In this document: one piece after another, positions 1 through 35,919 of the stretch
Position numbering within the stretch: position 1 is the first letter of the stretch
Layout: the number at the start of each line of letters is the position of its first letter
Virus record (IMG/VR): IMGVR_UViG_3300042906_000160
Coordinates: 1 to 35,919 of that record
DNA: 35,919 bases
Strand: one strand, 5' to 3'
Origin: a virus
Notes under the pieces: model-generated
Databases searched by the model: none
Told to the model about the DNA's origin: nothing
Seen by the model: only the letters and a program-made list of their open reading frames with translations
Translations under genes and position numbers: made by a program

Positions 1-5
1 TGTTG

Positions 6-23
6 AATAATTCGTGAATTATT
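6..23. promoter_or_regulatory. Inverted repeat upstream of pqqA
   Basis: AATAATTC-GT-GAATTATT is a perfect 8-base inverted repeat with a 2-base spacer. It ends 19 bases before the pqqA start and 7 bases before the AAGGA ribosome-binding site. It could be a repressor operator or, in RNA, an AU-rich hairpin next to the Shine-Dalgarno. It is repeated unchanged at 35678-35695. Confidence 0.5.
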
Positions 24-42
24 ACAGACAAAGGAAATTACC

Positions 43-114
43 ATGTGGACTACACCAGCAGCTACTGAAATGCGTTTTGGCTTTGAAGTTACAATGTATG
101 TAATGAATAAATAG
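43..114 (+). CDS. pqqA: PQQ precursor peptide PqqA (phage-borne)
   Basis: This 23-residue ORF has the canonical PqqA length and layout: an N-terminal MW-T-P, then MRFGFEVTMY. Glu15 and Tyr19 sit in the E-V-T-M-Y motif; in known PqqA these two residues are cross-linked by the radical SAM enzyme PqqE (held by PqqD) and later excised to become PQQ. The Shine-Dalgarno AAGGA lies 7 bases before ATG. No pqqB, C, D, E or F is in the window, so host enzymes would have to process the peptide. PQQ is the redox cofactor of periplasmic methanol dehydrogenases, which points to a methylotrophic host. The gene sits between the phage spanin genes and the end of the early operon across the circular junction, so it belongs to the phage rather than to a stray host flank. 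The family call is firm; the role in infection is inferred. Confidence 0.93.
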   Translation: MWTTPAATEMRFGFEVTMYVMNK

Positions 115-121
115 TCTAAAA

Positions 122-138
122 CTAAACTATTAGTTTAG
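122..138. repeat. Inverted repeat in the variable segment after pqqA
   Basis: CTAAACTA-T-TAGTTTAG is an 8-base inverted repeat with a 1-base spacer, 8 bases after the pqqA stop. It exists only in the left terminal copy; the right copy lacks it. It has no T-tract of its own, so I do not call it a terminator. Confidence 0.5.
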
Positions 139-170
139 AAGCGCAATAAAAAATAAACCTTAAGGCGGTT

Positions 171-230
171 AAGCCGACATTAGAGGATGTAGTAAGTAAC
201 GAGTTTTTCGGCTTTCTGCGTTACATGTAA
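171..230. promoter_or_regulatory. Hairpin and palindrome between pqqA and early operon
   Basis: AAGCCGA (171-177) can pair with TCGGCTT (208-214). GTAACG (196-201) can instead pair with CGTTAC (219-224); the two pairings cross. A 10-base perfect palindrome TTACATGTAA follows at 221-230. The block is kept in both terminal copies. Read on the minus strand, the hairpin follows the last early gene and is followed by a T-rich stretch, so it may help end leftward transcription. It may equally serve pqqA as a 3' structure. Confidence 0.4.
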
Positions 231-242
231 TAACTACCAAAT

Positions 243-344
243 CTACGCCTTACTTGTTTTATAAGCAATAAACGCTCCGCAAATCATTCCCAACCCAAAT
301 GCTGTGCTGTAGCATAGGACATATTCAGCTATCGTTTGTATCAT
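243..344 (-). CDS. Small predicted membrane protein (33 aa)
   Basis: This ORF runs from ATG at 344 to TAG at 243 and encodes 33 residues. An uninterrupted hydrophobic, glycine-containing stretch (about residues 9-28: YVLCYSTAFGLGMICGAFIA) could span a membrane, followed by a positive tail YKTSK. It overlaps the 3' end of the preceding DUF3310 gene by 20 bases, as is usual in this operon, and has a weak GGACGG ribosome-binding site. It is the last gene of the leftward operon and faces pqqA. I do not recognise its family. Confidence 0.5.
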   Translation of the reverse strand: MIQTIAEYVLCYSTAFGLGMICGAFIAYKTSKA

Positions 345-1378: not shown

Positions 1379-1399
1379 AAGGGCTTTCGCCCTTTTTTT
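1379..1399 (+). terminator. Intrinsic terminator-like hairpin, plus-strand polarity
   Basis: AAGGGC-TTTC-GCCCTT is followed by a run of seven T (1393-1399) when read on the plus strand, the pattern of a rho-independent terminator. The genes on both sides run on the minus strand. There, the same sequence folds as a GGGC-GAAA-GCCC hairpin with a GNRA loop, without a T-tract, just before the GGAGG site of the next gene. It could block antisense transcription or protect or process the early mRNA. Confidence 0.55.
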
Positions 1400-1649
1400 A
1401 AAATGGAATAGAATCTTCATAGTCAGATTGTTTGCCACTATCTTTAGCTGGCTCACCATCTTTAACATACGGCTCACTAAATGAAAAACTAAAGAACTTG
1501 CCTGACTTGCCTTCTTTTAACCAGGCTGACATACGCATCTCTTTACCATTAACCATGCAGTTACCTGTGTAGTCAGGATGTGTTTCTTTTTCTTTGCGGT
1601 TGTTTTTGAAAAGACTGCCGCTGTTATCTCGTTGTTCGTATTGTGCCAT
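1398..1649 (-). CDS. Small protein with SSB-like acidic C-terminal tip
   Basis: The 83-residue product starts [20 protein letters not shown] and ends DYEDSIPF. That ending closely resembles the acidic D-D-I-P-F tip by which single-stranded DNA-binding proteins recruit partners. The body ([21 protein letters not shown] followed by FFSFSF) is short and beta-rich. The gene lies directly downstream of the ERF annealing gene, 1 base apart, which fits a single-strand DNA role in recombination or replication. A complete canonical SSB fold cannot be assured at this length. Confidence 0.6.
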
Positions 1650-1650
1650 G

Positions 1651-2271
1651 TTAGTTCCCTTTTTGATATTTCTTAAATGTTGACCGTGTCTTGCTATCTA
1701 ATAAGCCCCACATAAATGTCTTTTGGTCATTGTCTAGTGAGTCCCATGTTACTTTAGCCTCTTGCGGATTGCCTTCAGCTACAAATGTTGTAAAACCTTC
1801 TGCCAAGCTGTGCAGTATATCTTTTTCCTCATCGCTAAACTCTGGTTGCTTTAGCTCTAGCGTTTCAGACTTTTTTGCTGGTGTGCCTGTGTCCGTTCCT
1901 GTAACAGCATCTAATACATCATGCTCTACAATTTCCATCGCTGAAACCCACAAGTATCTGCGCTGGTATGTTTCCACAGCACCCACATTCTGCACTTCGT
2001 GGCAGCCTTTTAACGCTGCACTACCCATAGGGCTAGTGATAGTTATTTGTGAGCCATCATCTATGTCGGTGATGGTTAGTGTTGCTAAGTCTGATGTAAA
2101 GCTAACTGTGCCACACAAACCTAAGTTCCAAAAGATTGTGTTGATTGTAGGTAAGAAGTCACCAAGTTCAAAGTATCTATAACCAGCAAACTTGTTATGA
2201 CCAGACTTGTTAAGCTTGGTGTTTTGCAGCTGGATTCTAGCGTCCATAAGCTTTTTGTAAACATTACTCAT
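1651..2271 (-). CDS. erf: ERF-type single-strand annealing protein
   Basis: This is a 206-residue member of the ERF superfamily (P22 Erf-like). The typical N-terminal K-L-x-x-A-R start and the Y-x-Y-x-x-L-G-D-F-L-P motif (about residues 31-41) are present. The diagnostic stretch [13 protein letters not shown] (about 97-109) follows. ERF proteins anneal complementary single strands, aiding circularisation and recombination of phage DNA. The C-terminal part is charged and variable. GGAGG lies 6 bases before ATG. It overlaps the upstream gene by 8 bases. Confidence 0.9.
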
Positions 2272-8060: not shown

Positions 8061-9272
8061 ATGGATCAACAAATAGAATATATAGAAGTCAGCAAACTAA
8101 TTCCGTACGCTAACAACGCTAGAACGCATGATGACAACCAGGTTACTCAAATTGCATCTAGTATTCGTGAGTTTGGTTTTAACAATCCCATTTTAATTGA
8201 TGATAATTACGGGATTATTGCTGGCCATGGTCGCTTAATGGCTGCTAAAAAGCTAGGGCTATTAGAAGCGCCAACTATAAAGTTATCCCATTTAAGTGAT
8301 GCCCAGCGTAAAGCATACATACTTGCGGATAACCGTATAGCTATGAATAGTGGCTGGGATAATGAATTGCTTGCGTTAGAGCTAAAAGAACTAGACGATG
8401 ACATAGACTTGTCGTTGCTAGGCTTTGACGCTGATGAGCTAAATGCGTTGCTAAACCCTGTAGAGCTAACAGATGGCTTAACAGATGAAGATGCTGTGCC
8501 TGAAGTGCCTGATGAGCCTGTTACTAAGCTAGGGGATATATACCAGTTAGGCAACCATCGTTTAATGTGTGGTGATAGCACTAGCATTGATGCGTTTGAT
8601 AAGTTAATGGACGGCCAAAAAGCTGACATGATATTTACTGACCCACCTTACGGCATGAGCTATGGTGGCGGTAGAGCAGGTGCAATTGGTAGCAATGATG
8701 GAACAGTTAAAAAATTTGGTGTAATTAAAGGCGATGATAAAATTGGTGACGATTTAATACAGCTAATAAGAGATGCGTTGTTATCTGCTGTAACCACAAG
8801 TAAATCAGGTTCATCTGTTTATGTATGTTTTCCTTGGCGAACTTACAGCGAATTTGAAACAGCTATGCTTGAATGCGGATTAAAAGCATCTGCTTGTATT
8901 GTATGGGATAAAAAGTCTATTGGTTTAGGTCTATCTAATTACAGACCACAACATGAATTTATATTTTATTGTAAGGGTGGCGCTTGGTACGGTGATAAGG
9001 CGCAATCTGATGTATGGTATATGAGTAGAGGTGCTACTGGCCAATATGTACATCCAACACAAAAGCCCGTTGAGCTAATAGAAAAAGCTATAAATAATAG
9101 TAGTAAAGCAGGCGATATAATTATTGATTGCTTTGGTGGTTCAGGTTCTACTATGATTGCGTCTGAAAAACTAGGCAGGTATTCACGCTTGATGGAACTA
9201 GACCCTAAATACTGTGATGTTATAGTAAAGCGTTGGGAAGAGTTTACAGGTAAGAAAGCGGTGCTACTATGA
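8061..9272 (+). CDS. ParB-like/adenine or cytosine-N4 DNA methyltransferase fusion
   Basis: Residues 1-110 form a ParB/Srx-like domain (VSKLIPYANNARTH; IAGHGRLMAAKKLG at 53-66). Residues about 155-403 form an amino-methyltransferase with catalytic D194-P-P-Y197 and, much later, the SAM-binding F358-G-G-S-G-S363. That motif order is the beta class. The protein should methylate adenine or cytosine N4 in phage DNA, likely as protection against host restriction. The ParB part may bind or cut nucleotide-rich targets. No matching endonuclease is nearby. It precedes terminase, and overlaps the next gene by ATGA. Confidence 0.9.
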   Translation: MDQQIEYIEVSKLIPYANNARTHDDNQVTQIASSIREFGFNNPILIDDNYGIIAGHGRLMAAKKLGLLEAPTIKLSHLSDAQRKAYILADNRIAMNSGWDNELLALELKELDDDIDLSLLGFDADELNALLNPVELTDGLTDEDAVPEVPDEPVTKLGDIYQLGNHRLMCGDSTSIDAFDKLMDGQKADMIFTDPPYGMSYGGGRAGAIGSNDGTVKKFGVIKGDDKIGDDLIQLIRDALLSAVTTSKSGSSVYVCFPWRTYSEFETAMLECGLKASACIVWDKKSIGLGLSNYRPQHEFIFYCKGGAWYGDKAQSDVWYMSRGATGQYVHPTQKPVELIEKAINNSSKAGDIIIDCFGGSGSTMIASEKLGRYSRLMELDPKYCDVIVKRWEEFTGKKAVLL

Positions 9273-9465: not shown

Positions 9466-9783
9466 ATGGCTCAAGGAAAAGAACATAAACCTACAGAGGA
9501 AAGCAAGAAGGTTGCTCGTACCTTATCTGCTGTGGGTATTACATACGAGGACATAGCCAATAAGCTAGATATAAGCTCTGATACGCTTGTTAAGTATTAT
9601 AAGAAAGAATTAGATGCTGGCCGTGTAGATGCTAACGCCTCTATTGGGCAGACATTGTTTCAACAAGCTAAAGACGGTAACACTAGCGCTGCAATCTTTT
9701 GGTTAAAGACAAGGGCTGGCTGGAAAGAAACGCAAGTAAACGAACACGCTGGTAGTGTTGCAATATACGCATGGGAAGAATAG
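9466..9783 (+). CDS. terS: Terminase small subunit
   Basis: This is a 105-residue DNA-binding protein. An N-terminal helix-turn-helix (about residues 23-45: VGITYEDIANKLDISSDTLVKYY) is followed by a helical oligomerisation part, ending with the typical F-W-L-K-T-R-A-G-W-K-E-T. Small terminases recognise the packaging site and hand DNA to the large subunit. GGAG lies 8 bases before ATG. It overlaps terL by 13 bases. Confidence 0.82.
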   Translation: MAQGKEHKPTEESKKVARTLSAVGITYEDIANKLDISSDTLVKYYKKELDAGRVDANASIGQTLFQQAKDGNTSAAIFWLKTRAGWKETQVNEHAGSVAIYAWEE

Positions 9784-11099
9784 TAATACCCTATAAGCCT
9801 CGTCAAGCGTTTATGCCTTTGCATAATAGCAATAGGCGCTGGAAGGTAATAGTTGCCCACCGTAGGGCAGGTAAGACAGTAGCTTGTGTCAATCAGCTGA
9901 TCAAAGAAGCTGTAATGACTAAGCGTAATGACTTTCGTGCAGCATACATAGCGCCATTCTACAAGCAAGCTAAGTCTGTAGCATGGGATTACTTTAAATA
10001 CTTTACTAGGGTAATTGATGGCATCGTCATTAATGAGTCAGAGCTACGCATTGATTTTAAGAACGGTGCAAGGATTCAGCTATTTGGTGCTGATAATGCT
10101 GACAGCCTTCGCGGTCTTTACCTTGATAGCATTGTGTGTGACGAGTATGGGGATTGGCGCGCTAATGTATTCCAGTACATCATCCGTCCTGCATTGGCTG
10201 ATAGACAAGGTAAAGCGGTCATAATCGGAACGCCTAAGGGCAGAAACGCCTTTTGGCAGACATACGATAGAGCTATACACTCCGATGATTGGCTGGCTTT
10301 AAAAATAACAGTTAGTGATTCAGGCATACTACCGCAATCAGAGATTGACTCATTAAAGCAAGAGTTATCTGAAGACGCATGGCGTCAAGAGATGGAATGT
10401 GACTTTGATGCTGCATTGCCTGGTGCTATATGGGGTCGTGAGTTATACCAAGCAGAGCAAGATGGTAGAGTAACTGGCGTAGAGTATGATGAGTTTGCCC
10501 CTGTGTTTACTGCATGGGATTTAGGTTACTCTGATGACACTGCTGTGTTCTTCTATCAAGTAGTGCAAGGTGAGGTTCACTTCATTGACTACTACGCTGC
10601 TAGTGGCAAGTCTATTGACCATTACGCTGCACACATACTAAGCAAGCCTTATAAATACAAGACGCACTTCTTACCACACGATGCTAGAGCTAAGACCTTA
10701 GCCTCTGGTGGTAAATCAGTCATTGAGATGTTGGCCGAACACTTGAGCATAACTAAGATGGCAATCACACCTAGTCTATCACTACATGATGGCATACAGG
10801 CGGTAAGACAAATGATGCCTAAAGCATGGTTTGATAAAGAGCGTTGTTATGATGGCCTAGAGGCTCTCAAACAGTATCAGCGTGAGTGGGATGATGACAA
10901 GAAAATGTTTAGGGATAAACCTAGGCACGATTGGACATCTCATGCGGCAGATGCTATGCGTTATGCTGCTATCAACTGGCGTGAAGAACACAAGCCTGTG
11001 ATAGAAGACAAACCAATTAGAGGCATTATGGTCGGACAGACCGATGTCACACTCAATGAACTATGGGCCACACAGCCTAAACAACCTAAAAGGATTTAA
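9771..11099 (+). CDS. terL: Terminase large subunit
   Basis: A 442-residue packaging ATPase and nuclease. Walker A is H30-R-R-A-G-K-T36, Walker B is I-V-C-D124-E125-Y-G-D, followed by the coupling region with I-I-G-T-P-K-G (151-157). The RNase H-like nuclease begins at A-W-D250-L-G with further Asp at 255-256, and a late H-A-A-D-A-M-R-Y holds another metal ligand. The length is usual for the family. No clear ribosome-binding site is seen, so translation is likely coupled to terS. Confidence 0.95.
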   Translation: MGRIVIPYKPRQAFMPLHNSNRRWKVIVAHRRAGKTVACVNQLIKEAVMTKRNDFRAAYIAPFYKQAKSVAWDYFKYFTRVIDGIVINESELRIDFKNGARIQLFGADNADSLRGLYLDSIVCDEYGDWRANVFQYIIRPALADRQGKAVIIGTPKGRNAFWQTYDRAIHSDDWLALKITVSDSGILPQSEIDSLKQELSEDAWRQEMECDFDAALPGAIWGRELYQAEQDGRVTGVEYDEFAPVFTAWDLGYSDDTAVFFYQVVQGEVHFIDYYAASGKSIDHYAAHILSKPYKYKTHFLPHDARAKTLASGGKSVIEMLAEHLSITKMAITPSLSLHDGIQAVRQMMPKAWFDKERCYDGLEALKQYQREWDDDKKMFRDKPRHDWTSHAADAMRYAAINWREEHKPVIEDKPIRGIMVGQTDVTLNELWATQPKQPKRI

Positions 11100-16773: not shown

Positions 16774-17852
16774 TGCCTTTATTGTTAGCAGGAGCGACAA
16801 GCGGTGTAACGACTGTACAAGCTACAGACACGGTGACTGCTACAATGACCTTGCCATCTGTAACGGGTATTGTACCAACACAAAACAGCACAACAGGTGC
16901 ATTGACATTACCTACTGGCACAACAGCACAACGACCAACAGCCTCAACAGGTATGGTTAGGTATAACTCAACACTAGGCGTTATGGAATACTATAATGGC
17001 ACAGCTTGGTATAGCGTGAGTTATGTGCCTCCTCCTTCTACCGTAGAGTATTTGGTAGTTGCTGGTGGTGGTGGTGCTGGTGGTGGTGGAGCTAACCCAA
17101 GTGGTGGTGGTGGTGCTGGCGGATATCTAACAGCTACTGGATTATCAGTAAGTGCTGGAAGTGCTATTACAGTAACAGTAGGTGCTGGTGGTACAGGTGG
17201 CGGAAGCGGAAGCAATGGTGGAAGTTCAGTATTTGGCGCAATTTCAACTACTGGTGGTGGTCGTGGTGGTTACTTAGATACTAACGGTTCTTCTGGTGGT
17301 TCAGGTGGTGGTGCAGGTTGGGGTGCAGGTTATCCAGCTGCATATCCAGCTCCAGCTGGCACATCAGGTCAAGGCAATAATGGTGGTTTAGGCACAAGCG
17401 GAAGAAACAACCAAGATACTGGTGGTGGTGGTGGCGGTAAAGGTGCTGTTGGTGGAAACGCTACTTATAATGTAAGCGGTGGTGCTGGTGGTGCTGGTAC
17501 AGCTAGTTCTATATCAGGCTCTAGCGTAACTTACGCAGGTGGTGGTGGCGGCGGTTCTCCTAACATAATCACAGCAACTCCTGGCGCAGGTGGTTCAGGC
17601 GGTGGAGGAACAGGCGGAACTTATGCTGGCGGACTTGGAGCTTCTGGAACTGCCAATACTGGTGGCGGTGGTGGTGGCGGTGGGGGCTCTAACGGTAGTA
17701 CTGCTGGCGGTGCTGGCGGTTCAGGAGTTGTCATCATCCGTTACGCTGATACATACGCTGCTGCGACCTCTACTACAGGCTCACCTACTATAACAGTTGC
17801 TGGTGGCTACCGTGTCTATAAATGGACAGGTTCAGGTTCAATTACATTCTAA
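16773..17852 (+). CDS. Glycine-rich adhesin, copy 1 (359 aa)
   Basis: The N-terminal 85 residues carry the LPTGTTAQRPTASTGMVRYN...NGTAWYS fibre module. After VEYLVVAGGGG the remaining ~260 residues consist of glycine runs broken by short strands, a glycine-rich domain of the kind found in phage tip adhesins such as the gp38 of S16-like phages, where polyglycine helices pack side by side. The C-terminus ends RVYKWTGSGSITF. It is paralogous to the gene at 18229. Likely receptor binding. Confidence 0.8.
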   Translation: MPLLLAGATSGVTTVQATDTVTATMTLPSVTGIVPTQNSTTGALTLPTGTTAQRPTASTGMVRYNSTLGVMEYYNGTAWYSVSYVPPPSTVEYLVVAGGGGAGGGGANPSGGGGAGGYLTATGLSVSAGSAITVTVGAGGTGGGSGSNGGSSVFGAISTTGGGRGGYLDTNGSSGGSGGGAGWGAGYPAAYPAPAGTSGQGNNGGLGTSGRNNQDTGGGGGGKGAVGGNATYNVSGGAGGAGTASSISGSSVTYAGGGGGGSPNIITATPGAGGSGGGGTGGTYAGGLGASGTANTGGGGGGGGGSNGSTAGGAGGSGVVIIRYADTYAAATSTTGSPTITVAGGYRVYKWTGSGSITF

Positions 17853-17863
17853 GGATTTACAAG

Positions 17864-18229
17864 ATGGCTTATTTTGCACGATTAGATGAAAACGATGTCG
17901 TGATAGATGTTCACGCATTAAACAACATTGAGATGCTAACCGCTGAAGGTTTAGAGTCCGAGGACATGGGTAAAGCTTTCTTTGTCCGTTGGTCAGGTGG
18001 CTACTCTAAATGGGTGCAAACATCTTACAACGGCACAATCCGTAAAAACTACGCAGGTATTGGTTACACATACGACCGTGTTCGTGATGCTTTCATTGCA
18101 CCTCAACCTTTCCCTAGTTGGACATTAGTAGAGGACACTTGTCAATGGCAAGCTCCTACACCTATGCCTACAGACGGTAAAGTCTATGTTTGGGACGAAG
18201 CTACAACCGCTTGGGTAGAAGCTAAATAA
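17864..18229 (+). CDS. Conserved fibre-region protein (121 aa)
   Basis: I start at ATG 17864 (MAYFARLDENDVVIDVHAL), preceded by AAGGA; the frame is open from 17822, but that part overlaps the previous gene. The sequence SYNGTIRKNYAGIGYTYD...D-A-F-I-A-P-Q-P-F-P-S-W-T-L is a conserved stretch seen in many aquatic phage proteins of unknown function. It ends TAATG into the second adhesin gene. Its position between two adhesins suggests a structural or assembly role. Confidence 0.65.
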   Translation: MAYFARLDENDVVIDVHALNNIEMLTAEGLESEDMGKAFFVRWSGGYSKWVQTSYNGTIRKNYAGIGYTYDRVRDAFIAPQPFPSWTLVEDTCQWQAPTPMPTDGKVYVWDEATTAWVEAK

Positions 18230-19290
18230 TGGCTAACTTGCTCATCAATGGAGCTACATCGGGGACTACCTCAATAGCCCCTACAGACAACGCTACGGCT
18301 ACTATAACGCTACCTGCTACATCAGGTGTGTTTCCTGTGCAAACAGCTACTACAGGCGCTCTATACTTGCCTACAGGCACTACTGCTCAACGACCTACAG
18401 CAGCAACTGGTCAATGGCGCTATAACACTGACTTAGGTGTTATGGAGTATTACAACGGCACGGCTTGGTACAGTATTACAGGGACTCCTCCTGTTCCTGT
18501 TGAGTATTTAGTAGTAGGCGGCGGTGGTGGCGGTGGAGCTTGGAGGTCAGGTGGTGGCGGAGCTGGCGGTGGTGGCGCCGGCGGCTTTAGAACGGCAACT
18601 GGATTGGAATTGCCAACTGGCGTATCTATAACCGTAACTGTAGGTGGTGGTGGAGCTGGTGGCTCAACAAATAATACAAATGGTGTAAGTGGTAGCAATT
18701 CAGTGTTTGCCTCTGTTACATCATTAGGTGGTGGTTTTGGCAGCACAGGGAATTACACAGCAGAGCCTGGTGGTTCAGGTGGTGGTGCTGGTGGTGGTAC
18801 AGGTATAGTAAAAACAGGTGGAGCTGGTACAAGTGGACAAGGTAACAATGGTGGTTCATGCAGCTCTGGAGATGCTGGTGGTGGTGGCGGAGGTGCAGGT
18901 GCAGTAGGCGCAAACGCTTCTGGAACTACAGGTGGCGCTGGTGGTAATGGTACAGCCTCATCAATCTCTGGCTCATCTGTAACTTATGGCGGTGGTGGCG
19001 GTGGAGCAGGAAATGTTGGCACAAGCTCTGGCGGTTCTGGTGGTGGGGGTAATGCTGGTGTTTTTGGCTCAACAGCCGCTTCAGCAGGTACAGCCAATAC
19101 TGGTGGCGGTGGTGGCGGTGCAGCAGGTAATGTATCAGTAGCAGGTGGAGCAGGTGGTTCAGGCATTGTCATCATTCGCTATGCAGATAGTTACCCAGCA
19201 GCCACATCAACTACAGGTTCACCCACTATCACAGTAGCTGGCGGTTACAGAGTCTATAAATGGACTGGTAGCGGAACGATTACTTTTTAA
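18229..19290 (+). CDS. Glycine-rich adhesin, copy 2 (353 aa)
   Basis: Same architecture as the 16773 product: the N-terminal module LPTGTTAQRPTAATGQWRYN...NGTAWYS, then VEYLVVGGGGGG and a long glycine-rich domain, ending RVYKWTGSGTITF. The first ~95 and last ~50 residues align closely with copy 1; the glycine-rich centre differs in length and spacing. The loops between the glycine strands would hold receptor specificity. Confidence 0.8.
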   Translation: MANLLINGATSGTTSIAPTDNATATITLPATSGVFPVQTATTGALYLPTGTTAQRPTAATGQWRYNTDLGVMEYYNGTAWYSITGTPPVPVEYLVVGGGGGGGAWRSGGGGAGGGGAGGFRTATGLELPTGVSITVTVGGGGAGGSTNNTNGVSGSNSVFASVTSLGGGFGSTGNYTAEPGGSGGGAGGGTGIVKTGGAGTSGQGNNGGSCSSGDAGGGGGGAGAVGANASGTTGGAGGNGTASSISGSSVTYGGGGGGAGNVGTSSGGSGGGGNAGVFGSTAASAGTANTGGGGGGAAGNVSVAGGAGGSGIVIIRYADSYPAATSTTGSPTITVAGGYRVYKWTGSGTITF

Positions 19291-19299
19291 GGAAATAAT

Positions 19300-21339: not shown

Positions 21340-21795
21340 ATGAATGCTCATATTTATTTAGTTACAAATGTGTTAAATGAAAAGCAATATGTAGGACAGA
21401 CCATAATTGATAAAAACAAATATGGTCATGGAATGGCGCTGGGCAGAGCTTATAAAAAGCATGGTAAGGAACATTTTACTTATGAAAGAATTTGCTCTGG
21501 CATTGACAATTTTAATCTGCTTAATTATTTAGAGCGATTTTGGATTGCCACTTTTAATACAATTAGACCTAACGGCTATAACATTGAAAGCGGTGGACAA
21601 GATGTTAAATCATGTCAAAAACATTCTGAAGAAACTAAACAAAGACTAAGTTTAATTAATCAAGGTGAAAATCATCCATTTTTTGGAAAAAAACACTCTG
21701 AAGAAACTAAGGCAAAGATTAGGTCTTCAATGATTGGAAGAAAACATACTGAACAAGCTAAATTAAATATGAAAGCAGCTGCAAAGAAAAAATAA
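21340..21795 (+). CDS. GIY-YIG homing endonuclease
   Basis: A 151-residue free-standing homing nuclease. The GIY-YIG domain shows H4-I-Y6, Y17-V-G19, R36 and catalytic E65 (YLERFW). Three NUMOD3-type DNA-binding repeats follow (KHSEETKQRLS, GKKHSEETKAKI, GRKHTEQAKLN). Such enzymes cut uninvaded genomes and spread by repair. It sits between decoration and scaffold genes. A near-copy of its ribosome-binding region (AAGGAAAGCAAAAT) precedes the scaffold gene. Confidence 0.92.
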   Translation: MNAHIYLVTNVLNEKQYVGQTIIDKNKYGHGMALGRAYKKHGKEHFTYERICSGIDNFNLLNYLERFWIATFNTIRPNGYNIESGGQDVKSCQKHSEETKQRLSLINQGENHPFFGKKHSEETKAKIRSSMIGRKHTEQAKLNMKAAAKKK

Positions 21796-32831: not shown

Positions 32832-33585
32832 GACACATTTTGTGTTGCCTGATGTCCAGGCTAAAGATGGTAATGACTTTACATTTTTAACTTGTATAGG
32901 CAAATACATCGTTGACAAAAAGCCTGATGTAATTATATGTATAGGGGACTTCGCTGATATGGAGTCCCTTTCTTCTTATGATGTGGGTAAAAAGTCATTT
33001 GAAGGTCGTAGCTACCAAAAAGATATTTGGGCTGCTAGAGAGGCTATGGATGCCCTTCTACAGCCTATATATGAGTACAACAAACAAGCTAAAAGTTTTA
33101 AACACAAGCAATACAAGCCTAGAATGGTTTTAACCCTAGGCAACCATGAAGACCGTATTAATCGTGCTATCAACGAGGATAGGAAGCTAGACGGCCTTAT
33201 CTCCATTGATGACTTGCCTTACCAAGATTGGGAAGTTATCCCATTTTTAGAGGTAATAGTGATTGATGGCATAGCTTACGCTCACTACTTTACATCGGGT
33301 GCTATGGGCAGACCTATTGGCTCTAGTGCAGCACTACTATCTAAAAAGCACATGAGTTGTTTTGCTGGTCACCAACAAGGCAGACAAATCTCTTACGCTA
33401 TGAAAGCTAATGGCCAAGAGATGACAGCCATTATCTGTGGGTCGTGTTATCTGCATAACGAGGACTATTTAGGCGCTCAAGGCAATAACCATTTTAGAGG
33501 TTGCTATATGCTCTACGATGTAGAGGATGGCCGTTTTGACGAATTGCCGTTGACGCTTAAGTATTTAATGAATAAATACGGCTAA
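32806..33585 (+). CDS. Calcineurin-like metallophosphoesterase
   Basis: Metal-binding motifs appear in order: D16 (LPDVQ), G47-D48-F-A-D51, G112-N-H114-E115, then a His-containing YAHYF and G-H-Q-Q-G-R. This is a phage phosphoesterase of about 260 residues; substrates could be phosphate esters of nucleotides, proteins or DNA ends, unknown here. I prefer ATG 32806 (MSFLTKPTKTHFVLPD); ATG 32785 is possible. The 3' end meets the HNH gene tail to tail. Confidence 0.82.
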   Translation: MSFLTKPTKTHFVLPDVQAKDGNDFTFLTCIGKYIVDKKPDVIICIGDFADMESLSSYDVGKKSFEGRSYQKDIWAAREAMDALLQPIYEYNKQAKSFKHKQYKPRMVLTLGNHEDRINRAINEDRKLDGLISIDDLPYQDWEVIPFLEVIVIDGIAYAHYFTSGAMGRPIGSSAALLSKKHMSCFAGHQQGRQISYAMKANGQEMTAIICGSCYLHNEDYLGAQGNNHFRGCYMLYDVEDGRFDELPLTLKYLMNKYG

Positions 33586-34070
33586 CCATTATTAGCGTAA
33601 TCGCCATGTAATTTTTTTCTAAAAGAAATTGCTTGGCAACAAGCTTCAAAAAAATCATTTGTAACGCAAATATGAGTTTTTATGTAATTGGCTTGAATTT
33701 GAACAATCCATTTATTTAGTTTTTTGTTCCAAGAAACGCCTTTAATTTTAGTTTTATTGTTTTTTCTAATGCTGGAATTAAAATTATTTTGCTGATGAGT
33801 AACTTGGCGTAAATTACATAATCTATTATCAAGTTTATTATTATTTATATGGTCAATAGATGTTGGCCATTCGCCATAAGTATATAACCATGCAAGGCGA
33901 TGAGCTAAATATAACTTATGATTAATGCTTATATTAATATAACCACGATTGTTTGGGCTTCCAGCTATTTCACCAACTTTAACAAGATGATGATTTGACA
34001 CTAGCCTAGTAAAAATTCCAGTTTCAGGGGCGTAATGTAATTGTGCTTGTAATTCTGCTTGTGTGAGCAT
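33582..34070 (-). CDS. HNH homing endonuclease with AP2 domain
   Basis: Residues 70-90 hold the HNH motif: D73-H74-I-N-N-N-K-L-D-N-R-L-C-N-L-R. The early part (HRLAWLYTYGEWP) is the usual lead-in. An AP2-type DNA-binding region follows (about 110-150: KGVSWNKKLNKWIVQIQ). It lies on the minus strand in a plus-strand region, with its own promoter and AAGGA site. This is a mobile intronless endonuclease gene. Stops of the two convergent genes overlap. Confidence 0.9.
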   Translation of the reverse strand: MLTQAELQAQLHYAPETGIFTRLVSNHHLVKVGEIAGSPNNRGYINISINHKLYLAHRLAWLYTYGEWPTSIDHINNNKLDNRLCNLRQVTHQQNNFNSSIRKNNKTKIKGVSWNKKLNKWIVQIQANYIKTHICVTNDFFEACCQAISFRKKLHGDYANNG

Positions 34071-34340: not shown

Positions 34341-34699
34341 TTGGTGAATTTATAGCAACATTGTTTTTAGCTCGTGATGTAGCACACAGAGAACACCTAC
34401 GCACTAAAAGTTATTCTCAACACAAGGCTTTAGGCCACTTTTATGAAGACATAGCAGAGTTAGCTGACAAGCTAACAGAGGCTTATCAAGGCCGTCATGG
34501 CATCATTAAAGAAATACCCATATTGACCGAGGAAGAGAAGTATAAAGAGCCTATCTACTGCATAGCTGAAAAACTAGCTTATGTTGAGAAGAATCGTTAC
34601 AAGTGCATACCTAAAGATGACTCTGCATTACAGAACATTGTGGACGAAATAATAGGTGAATTCTTGAGCCTAATTTACAAGCTGGAAAACCTTAAATGA
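34337..34699 (+). CDS. DUF5856-like helical protein (120 aa)
   Basis: The four-helix pattern FIATLFLARDVAHREHLRTKSYSQHKALGHFYEDIAELADKLTEAYQGRHG resembles DUF5856, a phage family with ferritin-like helical look. Conserved His and Glu lie in the first two helices. No function is known. It overlaps the endolysin gene by ATGA and the zinc-ribbon gene upstream. Confidence 0.65.
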   Translation: MIGEFIATLFLARDVAHREHLRTKSYSQHKALGHFYEDIAELADKLTEAYQGRHGIIKEIPILTEEEKYKEPIYCIAEKLAYVEKNRYKCIPKDDSALQNIVDEIIGEFLSLIYKLENLK

Positions 34700-35133
34700 A
34701 GTTGAGCGAGCATTTTACGCTTGAGGAGCTAACCTTCTCACAAACAGCAGTTCGTAACGGCATTAACAACAACCCATCCCAAGCAGTTAGAAACAATTTA
34801 AAAACACTAGCTGACAACCTTGAGAAAATACGCACATTTTTAGGCCATCCATTACGGATCAGCTCTGCCTTTCGTTGCATGGAACTTAATCGCAAAATAG
34901 GCGGTTCAGTAAACTCTGCTCACATGGACGGTCTAGCTGCTGACTTTACTTGCGCTGGGTTTGGCAAGCCTATTGATGTAGTAAAAGCTTTATTTAAGTC
35001 TGGCATTAAGGTTGACCAAGTTATTGAGGAAGGCGCTTGGGTTCATGTATCGTTTGACCCTAAAATGCGTCAGCAATTCTTAACAGCAACCTTTATGAAC
35101 GGCAAACCATCTTACAAACCTTTTAAGGAGTAG
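34696..35133 (+). CDS. Endolysin, peptidase M15A type
   Basis: A 145-residue zinc peptidase of the M15 family. The residues H76-x6-D83 (SAHMDGLAADF) and H117 (WVHVS) are zinc ligands; E111/E112 stands where the catalytic Glu is. ISSAFRCMELNRKIGGS is the family's conserved lead. M15 endolysins cut peptide cross-bridges of peptidoglycan. No signal peptide is seen, so it needs a holin, probably the next gene. Confidence 0.88.
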   Translation: MKLSEHFTLEELTFSQTAVRNGINNNPSQAVRNNLKTLADNLEKIRTFLGHPLRISSAFRCMELNRKIGGSVNSAHMDGLAADFTCAGFGKPIDVVKALFKSGIKVDQVIEEGAWVHVSFDPKMRQQFLTATFMNGKPSYKPFKE

Positions 35134-35579: not shown

Positions 35580-35677
35580 TTAGTGCTTTTCACTAGCTTG
35601 CATTAATAGTTCCACCGATGTGTAAAAACCTTGATTCTGTTACTATGTATTCATTCAATGCAAAAAAGTTTGTGTTG

Positions 35678-35695
35678 AATAATTCGTGAATTATT
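35678..35695. promoter_or_regulatory. Inverted repeat upstream of pqqA, right copy
   Basis: Same AATAATTC-GT-GAATTATT as at 6-23. Here the true upstream region is present: about 98 bases after the spanin stop, AT-rich, without a clear sigma-70 promoter that I can defend. Confidence 0.5.
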
Positions 35696-35714
35696 ACAGA
35701 CAAAGGAAATTACC

Positions 35715-35786
35715 ATGTGGACTACACCAGCAGCTACTGAAATGCGTTTTGGCTTTGAAGTTACAATGTATGTAATGAATAAGTAA
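35715..35786 (+). CDS. pqqA: PqqA precursor peptide, right terminal copy
   Basis: Encodes the same 23 residues as 43-114, with Glu15 and Tyr19, and the same AAGGA site. The final Lys codon is AAG and the stop TAA, instead of AAA and TAG. It follows the spanin genes by 135 bases. In a circular genome this and 43-114 would be one gene seen in two variants. Confidence 0.92.
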   Translation: MWTTPAATEMRFGFEVTMYVMNK

Positions 35787-35874
35787 TTGTTTTTAGGCGG
35801 TTAAGCCGACATTAGAGGATGTAGTAAGTAACGAGTTTTTCGGCTTTCTGCGTTACATGTAATAACTACCAAAT

Positions 35875-35919
35875 CTACGCCTTACTTGTTTTATAAGCAA
35901 TAAACGCTCCGCAAATCAT
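35875..35919 (-). CDS. Partial second copy of the 33-aa membrane protein
   Basis: This contains the last 14 codons and the stop of the ORF at 243-344, cut by the window end. The base sequence is unchanged. It supports an overlap of contig ends rather than an additional gene. Confidence 0.5.
   Translation of the reverse strand: MICGAFIAYKTSKA

Follow-up and report, generated by a model that had tools for sequence, protein, structure and literature searches.

Why would a phage with a genome of about 36 kb carry a 23-codon gene for the peptide from which PQQ is made, and is this gene kept for that peptide? The question is raised by a plus-strand ORF at positions 43 to 114 of the window, by which we mean the whole 35,919-nucleotide stretch of viral DNA analyzed here (IMG/VR record IMGVR_UViG_3300042906_000160). 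The ORF translates to MWTTPAATEMRFGFEVTMYVMNK. The original prediction, made from the sequence and without database searches, was that it is PqqA, with the exact length, the E-x3-Y core, and a good Shine-Dalgarno sequence, and each of these points stands: the peptide has 23 residues and contains E15-x3-Y19, AAGGA lies a few bases ahead of the ATG, and both PqqA family models are exceeded at nearly twice their cut-offs, with 40.3 bits for Pfam family PF08042 (cut-off, 21.1; E value, 3e-10) and 38.8 bits for the NCBIfam equivalog TIGR02107 (cut-off, 20). The two scores therefore place the match far beyond chance, and no PHROGs family covers the peptide. Judged by its sequence, the ORF is a genuine, full-length pqqA.

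The same peptide is the PqqA found most often in the Methylophilaceae (53 of 128 host loci), and the nearest host pqqA DNA that we found differs from the window copy at 3 of 69 bases; we therefore infer that the host of this phage is a member of the Methylophilaceae. A methylotroph host had been predicted, and a search with the PqqA profile and a comparison with Methylophilaceae pqqA had been proposed as checks; both came out in favor of the prediction, and the phage records that contain PqqA are nearly all from Methylophilales phages. The host family itself is rich in this gene. All 120 of the 120 Methylophilaceae genomes contain pqqA, 117 of them in more than one copy, with a mean of 4.6, a median of 4, and a maximum of 12 copies per genome, in agreement with an earlier report that cultured strains have multiple pqqA genes with single pqqBCDE sets (PMC4109929). 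Since many copies accompany a single pqqBCDE set, precursor dosage probably matters in the Methylophilaceae. In Gluconobacter, overexpression of pqqA alone was reported to raise PQQ, as cited in PMC7936290. A prophage origin of the multiple host copies was considered and rejected, as phage-like neighbors occur at only 1 of 118 host loci. At one locus in the host genome collection (L318), the neighbors of pqqA match many phage genes, which suggests that it is a prophage or a phage contig binned with the host.

The prediction that the gene sits on a phage is borne out by the family content of the rest of the contig, which includes terminase, portal, major head protein, endolysin, single-strand DNA-binding (SSB), Erf, primosomal, helicase, NinB, and RusA families, while PqqE and PQQ-dehydrogenase domains are absent from the window. 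The predicted placement between lysis and early genes is correct across the junction of the contig ends, as the endolysin gene precedes the second pqqA copy and the SSB and Erf genes, on the minus strand, follow the first (Table 1). Elsewhere in the window, two neighboring proteins (17056 to 19293) contain long glycine-rich repeats, share a repeat that is about 150 bp long and 76% identical, and are perhaps tail or adhesin variants; a single protein (8061 to 9272) consists of a ParB-like domain fused to a DNA methyltransferase; and GIY-YIG-type and HNH endonucleases are encoded within the structural and lysis regions (21340 to 21795 and 33582 to 34070).

Table 1. Features of the window that bear on the pqqA locus
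Feature	Position	Strand	Basis
pqqA, contig-start copy, 23-aa PQQ precursor with Glu15 and Tyr19	43..114	+	family profiles
Shine-Dalgarno sequence AAGGAAA (core AAGGA, 31-35), upstream of the ATG at 43	31..37	+	sequence
pqqA, contig-end copy, same peptide	35715..35786	+	sequence
Endolysin (M15-like peptidase) of the lysis module, which precedes pqqA	34696..35133	+	phrog_894, E 6.7e-40
Single-strand DNA-binding protein of the early module, which follows pqqA	1398..1649	-	phrog_18154
Erf-like single-strand annealing protein	1651..2271	-	phrog_155
Terminase large subunit, used for finding relatives	9771..11099	+	phrog_2
Terminal overlap, left arm	1..287	.	matches 35673-35919 except for an indel of about 40 bp after pqqA
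Terminal overlap, right arm	35673..35919	.	matches 1-287 except for an indel of about 40 bp after pqqA
Block upstream of pqqA, kept in close relatives; candidate promoter or regulatory site	35615..35646	+	sequence comparison

There are two pqqA copies in the window because its ends have the same sequence, apart from the indel directly 3' of the gene. The second copy is most likely the first locus read again where the contig ends overlap, and the window is likely a circular or terminally redundant phage genome from a mixed population; alternatively, there may be a real tandem duplication of pqqA at the window ends. In a relative of 36,459 bp (G026; loci L390 and L391), the pqqA alleles near the two contig ends differ from each other, as do their leaders; either the population was mixed or the gene is truly present twice. 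The block upstream of pqqA is present in nine phage loci and in none of the host loci. A scan for canonical sigma-70 promoters at pqqA gave no match, that block included, no canonical terminator was found at the window pqqA, and an element downstream of the gene folds no better than shuffled sequences. The leader contains a perfect inverted repeat, AATAATTC-GT-GAATTATT (6 to 23 and 35678 to 35695), which is retained with an altered loop in close relatives with the same leader type and is a possible regulatory site.

The gene is not confined to this phage. When 50,697 phage records were searched by tblastn with the peptide as query, ten real phages matched: nine Methylophilales phages (P19250A, Venkman, MEP301, MEP401, MEP402, and four Melnitz phages) and one from Manatee Spring that lacks a host label. 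PqqA is thereby present in 9 of the 9 cultured Methylophilales phage records found. Pelagibacter phages were not among the matches, although, by terminase, most of the closest named relatives of the window are pelagiphages of the HTVC010P type (42 to 45% identity). Related phages had been expected to hold the gene unannotated, and this proved to be the case: beneath the pqqA match, no feature is annotated in P19250A, Venkman, MEP301, MEP401, or MEP402, and the ORF that is annotated there in the Melnitz and Manatee Spring phages is encoded on the other strand. A phage pqqA goes unmentioned in the publications on Venkman, MEP301, the OM43 phage groups (PMC10580990), and Melnitz. In IMG/VR, at least 120 contigs contain the Methylophilaceae-type core pattern and 75 further contigs contain variants of it at residue 18, compared with six contigs for a PqqA pattern typical of other bacteria, the patterns differing somewhat in degeneracy. 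Of the longer contigs that terminase or portal similarity links to the window, many carry pqqA and some do not; three terminase relatives that gave no pqqA match (G009, G021, and G022) may be incomplete or infect other hosts.

Two records that match PqqA were set aside. CAKLQF020000010.1 (L209), labeled "Acinetobacter phage MD-2021a," is a bacterial contig with a pqqABCDE operon and was dropped as phage evidence; it is likely mislabeled. IMGVR_UViG_3300025120_009955 (G039, locus L117) encodes proteins that, as named from their sequences, are a formate dehydrogenase, an adenylate-cyclase-like protein, and a XoxF-like protein, which point to a host, and it looks like a fragment of a methylotroph chromosome filed as viral. 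It is the one record, among 35 pqqA-positive records, with a PQQ-dehydrogenase domain; with G039 taken as a host fragment, no other record checked has this domain. Given that at least one IMG/VR pqqA contig looks like host DNA, contamination or misassembly, in which a host pqqA became joined to a phage contig, has to be weighed for the window as well. However, pqqA is found in cultured, complete phages, it lies inside the contigs of close relatives behind leaders known only from phages, and, G039 aside, the neighbor families of the phage loci match those of host pqqA loci only at one phage-like locus in the host collection. We give contamination a negligible probability, and for the phage group as a whole the cultured phages refute it.

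Within phages, pqqA is found in diverse surroundings. It adjoins a recombination module (SSB, YqaJ, and Erf) in some loci, lies directly 3' of a major head protein gene in others, adjoins RegA and Hsp20 genes in T4-like phages, adjoins a gp23-like head gene, or is located near structural genes of Zobellviridae. When loci are joined by any common neighbor family, nine unconnected groups remain, seven of them with at least two loci, and this lack of connection points to repeated acquisition or transfer of the gene. Turnover is also visible at close range. Among relatives of the window with about 93 to 99% identity in terminase or portal, three unrelated leaders precede pqqA, relatives with different leaders also differ in peptide allele and trailing sequence, and there are several indels at the locus. 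Thus, pqqA is retained while its flanking sequence is swapped among close relatives. None of the phage leaders was found when they were sought in host loci.

PqqE joins residues Glu15 and Tyr19 of PqqA. As the patterns used for scanning fix most core residues, core conservation in the pattern-derived sets is no evidence of selection, and pN/pS was therefore taken from codons outside the pattern and from a set found by profile. It is 0.275 in the pattern-derived phage set, next to a host value of 0.28, and 0.10 in 12 distinct sequences found as terminase or portal relatives with the PqqA profile. A Shine-Dalgarno motif is present at 128 of 128 phage loci, compared with 9% of shuffled leaders. 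Codon usage differs between phage and host copies: Arg11 is encoded by AGA in 32 of 111 phage copies versus 1 of 112 host copies (Fisher's exact P of about 3e-10) and Tyr19 by TAT in 52 of 111 versus 9 of 112 (P of about 3e-11), both P values ignoring relatedness. The IMG/VR scan yielded no contig in which Glu15 is replaced through a codon that does not start with G (a range that leaves Asp, for example, outside the scan) and none in which Tyr19 is replaced through a codon that does not start with T (Phe, for example, lies outside), while the same kind of codon change at residue 18 accounts for the 75 variant contigs. By these comparisons of coding sequences, phage pqqA is under purifying selection and has retained its reactive residues. 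As a host-derived metabolic gene that is found on phages and maintained by selection, it has two of the characteristics of an auxiliary metabolic gene, the third being expression in infection with a change in host metabolism.

These observations bear on two other explanations. The segment could be kept as DNA and not for its peptide, either as an attachment site or as an anchor that recombines with the multicopy host pqqA, and both the conservation and copy number of the host gene and the hotspot character of the phage locus, with its unrelated leaders and indels, would fit such a role. Yet synonymous sites diverge and phage codons are adopted while the protein is kept, the phage leaders are absent from host loci, the Shine-Dalgarno motif is kept in all loci, and no integrase is among the window proteins scanned. 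The synonymous divergence and the phage-only leaders weaken this explanation to the point that we regard it as very unlikely. One form of it, a partial gene at an attachment site, was rejected in view of the full ORF with its own Shine-Dalgarno sequence, the lack of an integrase among the scanned proteins, and the differences from the nearest host copy. The original prediction had also allowed that the peptide might act as a decoy that occupies PqqD or PqqE, which would lower PQQ synthesis by the host. Any PqqA competes for these two proteins, and stand-alone carriage without pathway enzymes agrees with this idea, but a decoy would work best without the reactive residues, neither of which is lost under the codon changes scanned, and a peptide that is the host's own should simply become PQQ. 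Because the reactive residues are fixed and the peptide is identical to that of the host, the decoy is disfavored, and we see only a slim chance that it is correct.

Genes pqqB to pqqE were not found near pqqA at any phage locus examined, compared with 29 of 118 host loci, and PqqE did not score above its cut-off in any of 35 pqqA-positive records; therefore, the phages bring the precursor alone. We consider it quite probable that the gene works as pqqA, stems from a host, and is maintained by a Methylophilaceae phage as a stand-alone auxiliary metabolic gene that resupplies a consumed precursor. The phage would contribute nothing but the peptide; binding it and linking its Glu15 to Tyr19 would fall to PqqD and PqqE of the host, after which host proteases, together with host PqqB and PqqC, would complete PQQ for the methanol dehydrogenases of the host. 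Cross-linking of the phage peptide by PqqE with PqqD, so as to yield PQQ, is likely because it is identical to the host peptide. PqqA is the sole component of the pathway that is consumed, at one peptide per PQQ, so that its replacement would be enough to keep up the supply of PQQ. Once host transcription falls, with the host pathway enzymes presumably persisting, phage pqqA would replace the missing peptide, and by keeping up the PQQ supply it would sustain the energy and formaldehyde that phage synthesis draws on, for about 70 bp of sequence. We infer that the gene is expressed during infection, that host enzymes process its product, that supply is limiting, and that the phage benefits.

The many pqqA copies that hosts already hold speak against resupply, since added supply may then not limit PQQ. 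Two further points on that side are the terminase relatives that gave no pqqA match and the lack of a canonical promoter or terminator at the gene. The many host copies also leave room for the peptide to be made and processed for a benefit other than more methanol oxidation, such as service to another PQQ enzyme, redox protection, or the replacement of a shut-off host message without a net rise in PQQ, and the evidence presented here covers the identity of PqqA and selection on it only. The distribution in phages nevertheless closely tracks methylotroph hosts, whose core energy enzyme is the PQQ-dependent methanol dehydrogenase (PMC4109929), and a benefit of another kind appears unlikely to us. 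Our results thus suggest that pqqA is a standard tool of methylotroph phages for sustaining methanol oxidation in infection.

If the peptide feeds PQQ synthesis, viruses of abundant freshwater and coastal methanol oxidizers would steer methanol turnover, and a 69-base gene passed over by gene callers would do the steering. An auxiliary metabolic gene could then encode a substrate rather than an enzyme and be kept by small, streamlined phages, which suggests that very short ORFs belong in surveys of phage metabolic genes. Phage isolates with hosts (Venkman, Melnitz, MEP301, MEP401/402, and P19250A) make the idea directly testable.

The original prediction named no earlier description of a phage pqqA, but the T4-like virus population VP_266 from Lake Baikal was reported in 2020 to encode PqqA and a methanol dehydrogenase (Coutinho et al. 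2020, PMC7678222), and this kind of gene was therefore already known in phages; a 2026 reservoir study likewise lists pqqA among virus genes (PMC13188868). VP_266 resembles the window in that PqqA is carried by a predicted Methylophilaceae phage, with a proposed support of methanol oxidation, and differs from it in being T4-like and encoding a methanol dehydrogenase, whereas in the phage of the window, at about 36 kb, pqqA stands on its own. Beyond VP_266, pqqA is found here in several unrelated neighborhoods and in all nine cultured phage records found, and the breadth, stand-alone form, and missed annotation of phage pqqA were not found in the openly readable papers searched. Compared with host pqqA, the phage gene of the window encodes an identical peptide, E15-x3-Y19 included, and host orphan copies are also located away from pqqBCDE; in contrast to host genes, the leaders and codons of phage copies are specific to phages, and no phage copy examined adjoins pqqB to pqqE. 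A functional parallel is psbA of cyanophages, which encodes D1, a host-derived, quickly used-up component of the energy system of the host, and is widespread in the phages of that host group. By analogy, phage pqqA would likewise provide the fast-consumed component of a host energy system, although psbA encodes a protein subunit and PqqA is a consumed precursor of 23 residues. On balance, we lean toward the view that pqqA is near-universal in Methylophilaceae phages, repeatedly acquired, and largely unannotated, and that it is the methylotroph counterpart of psbA, through which the phage supplies the consumed substrate of a RiPP pathway while every processing enzyme comes from the host.
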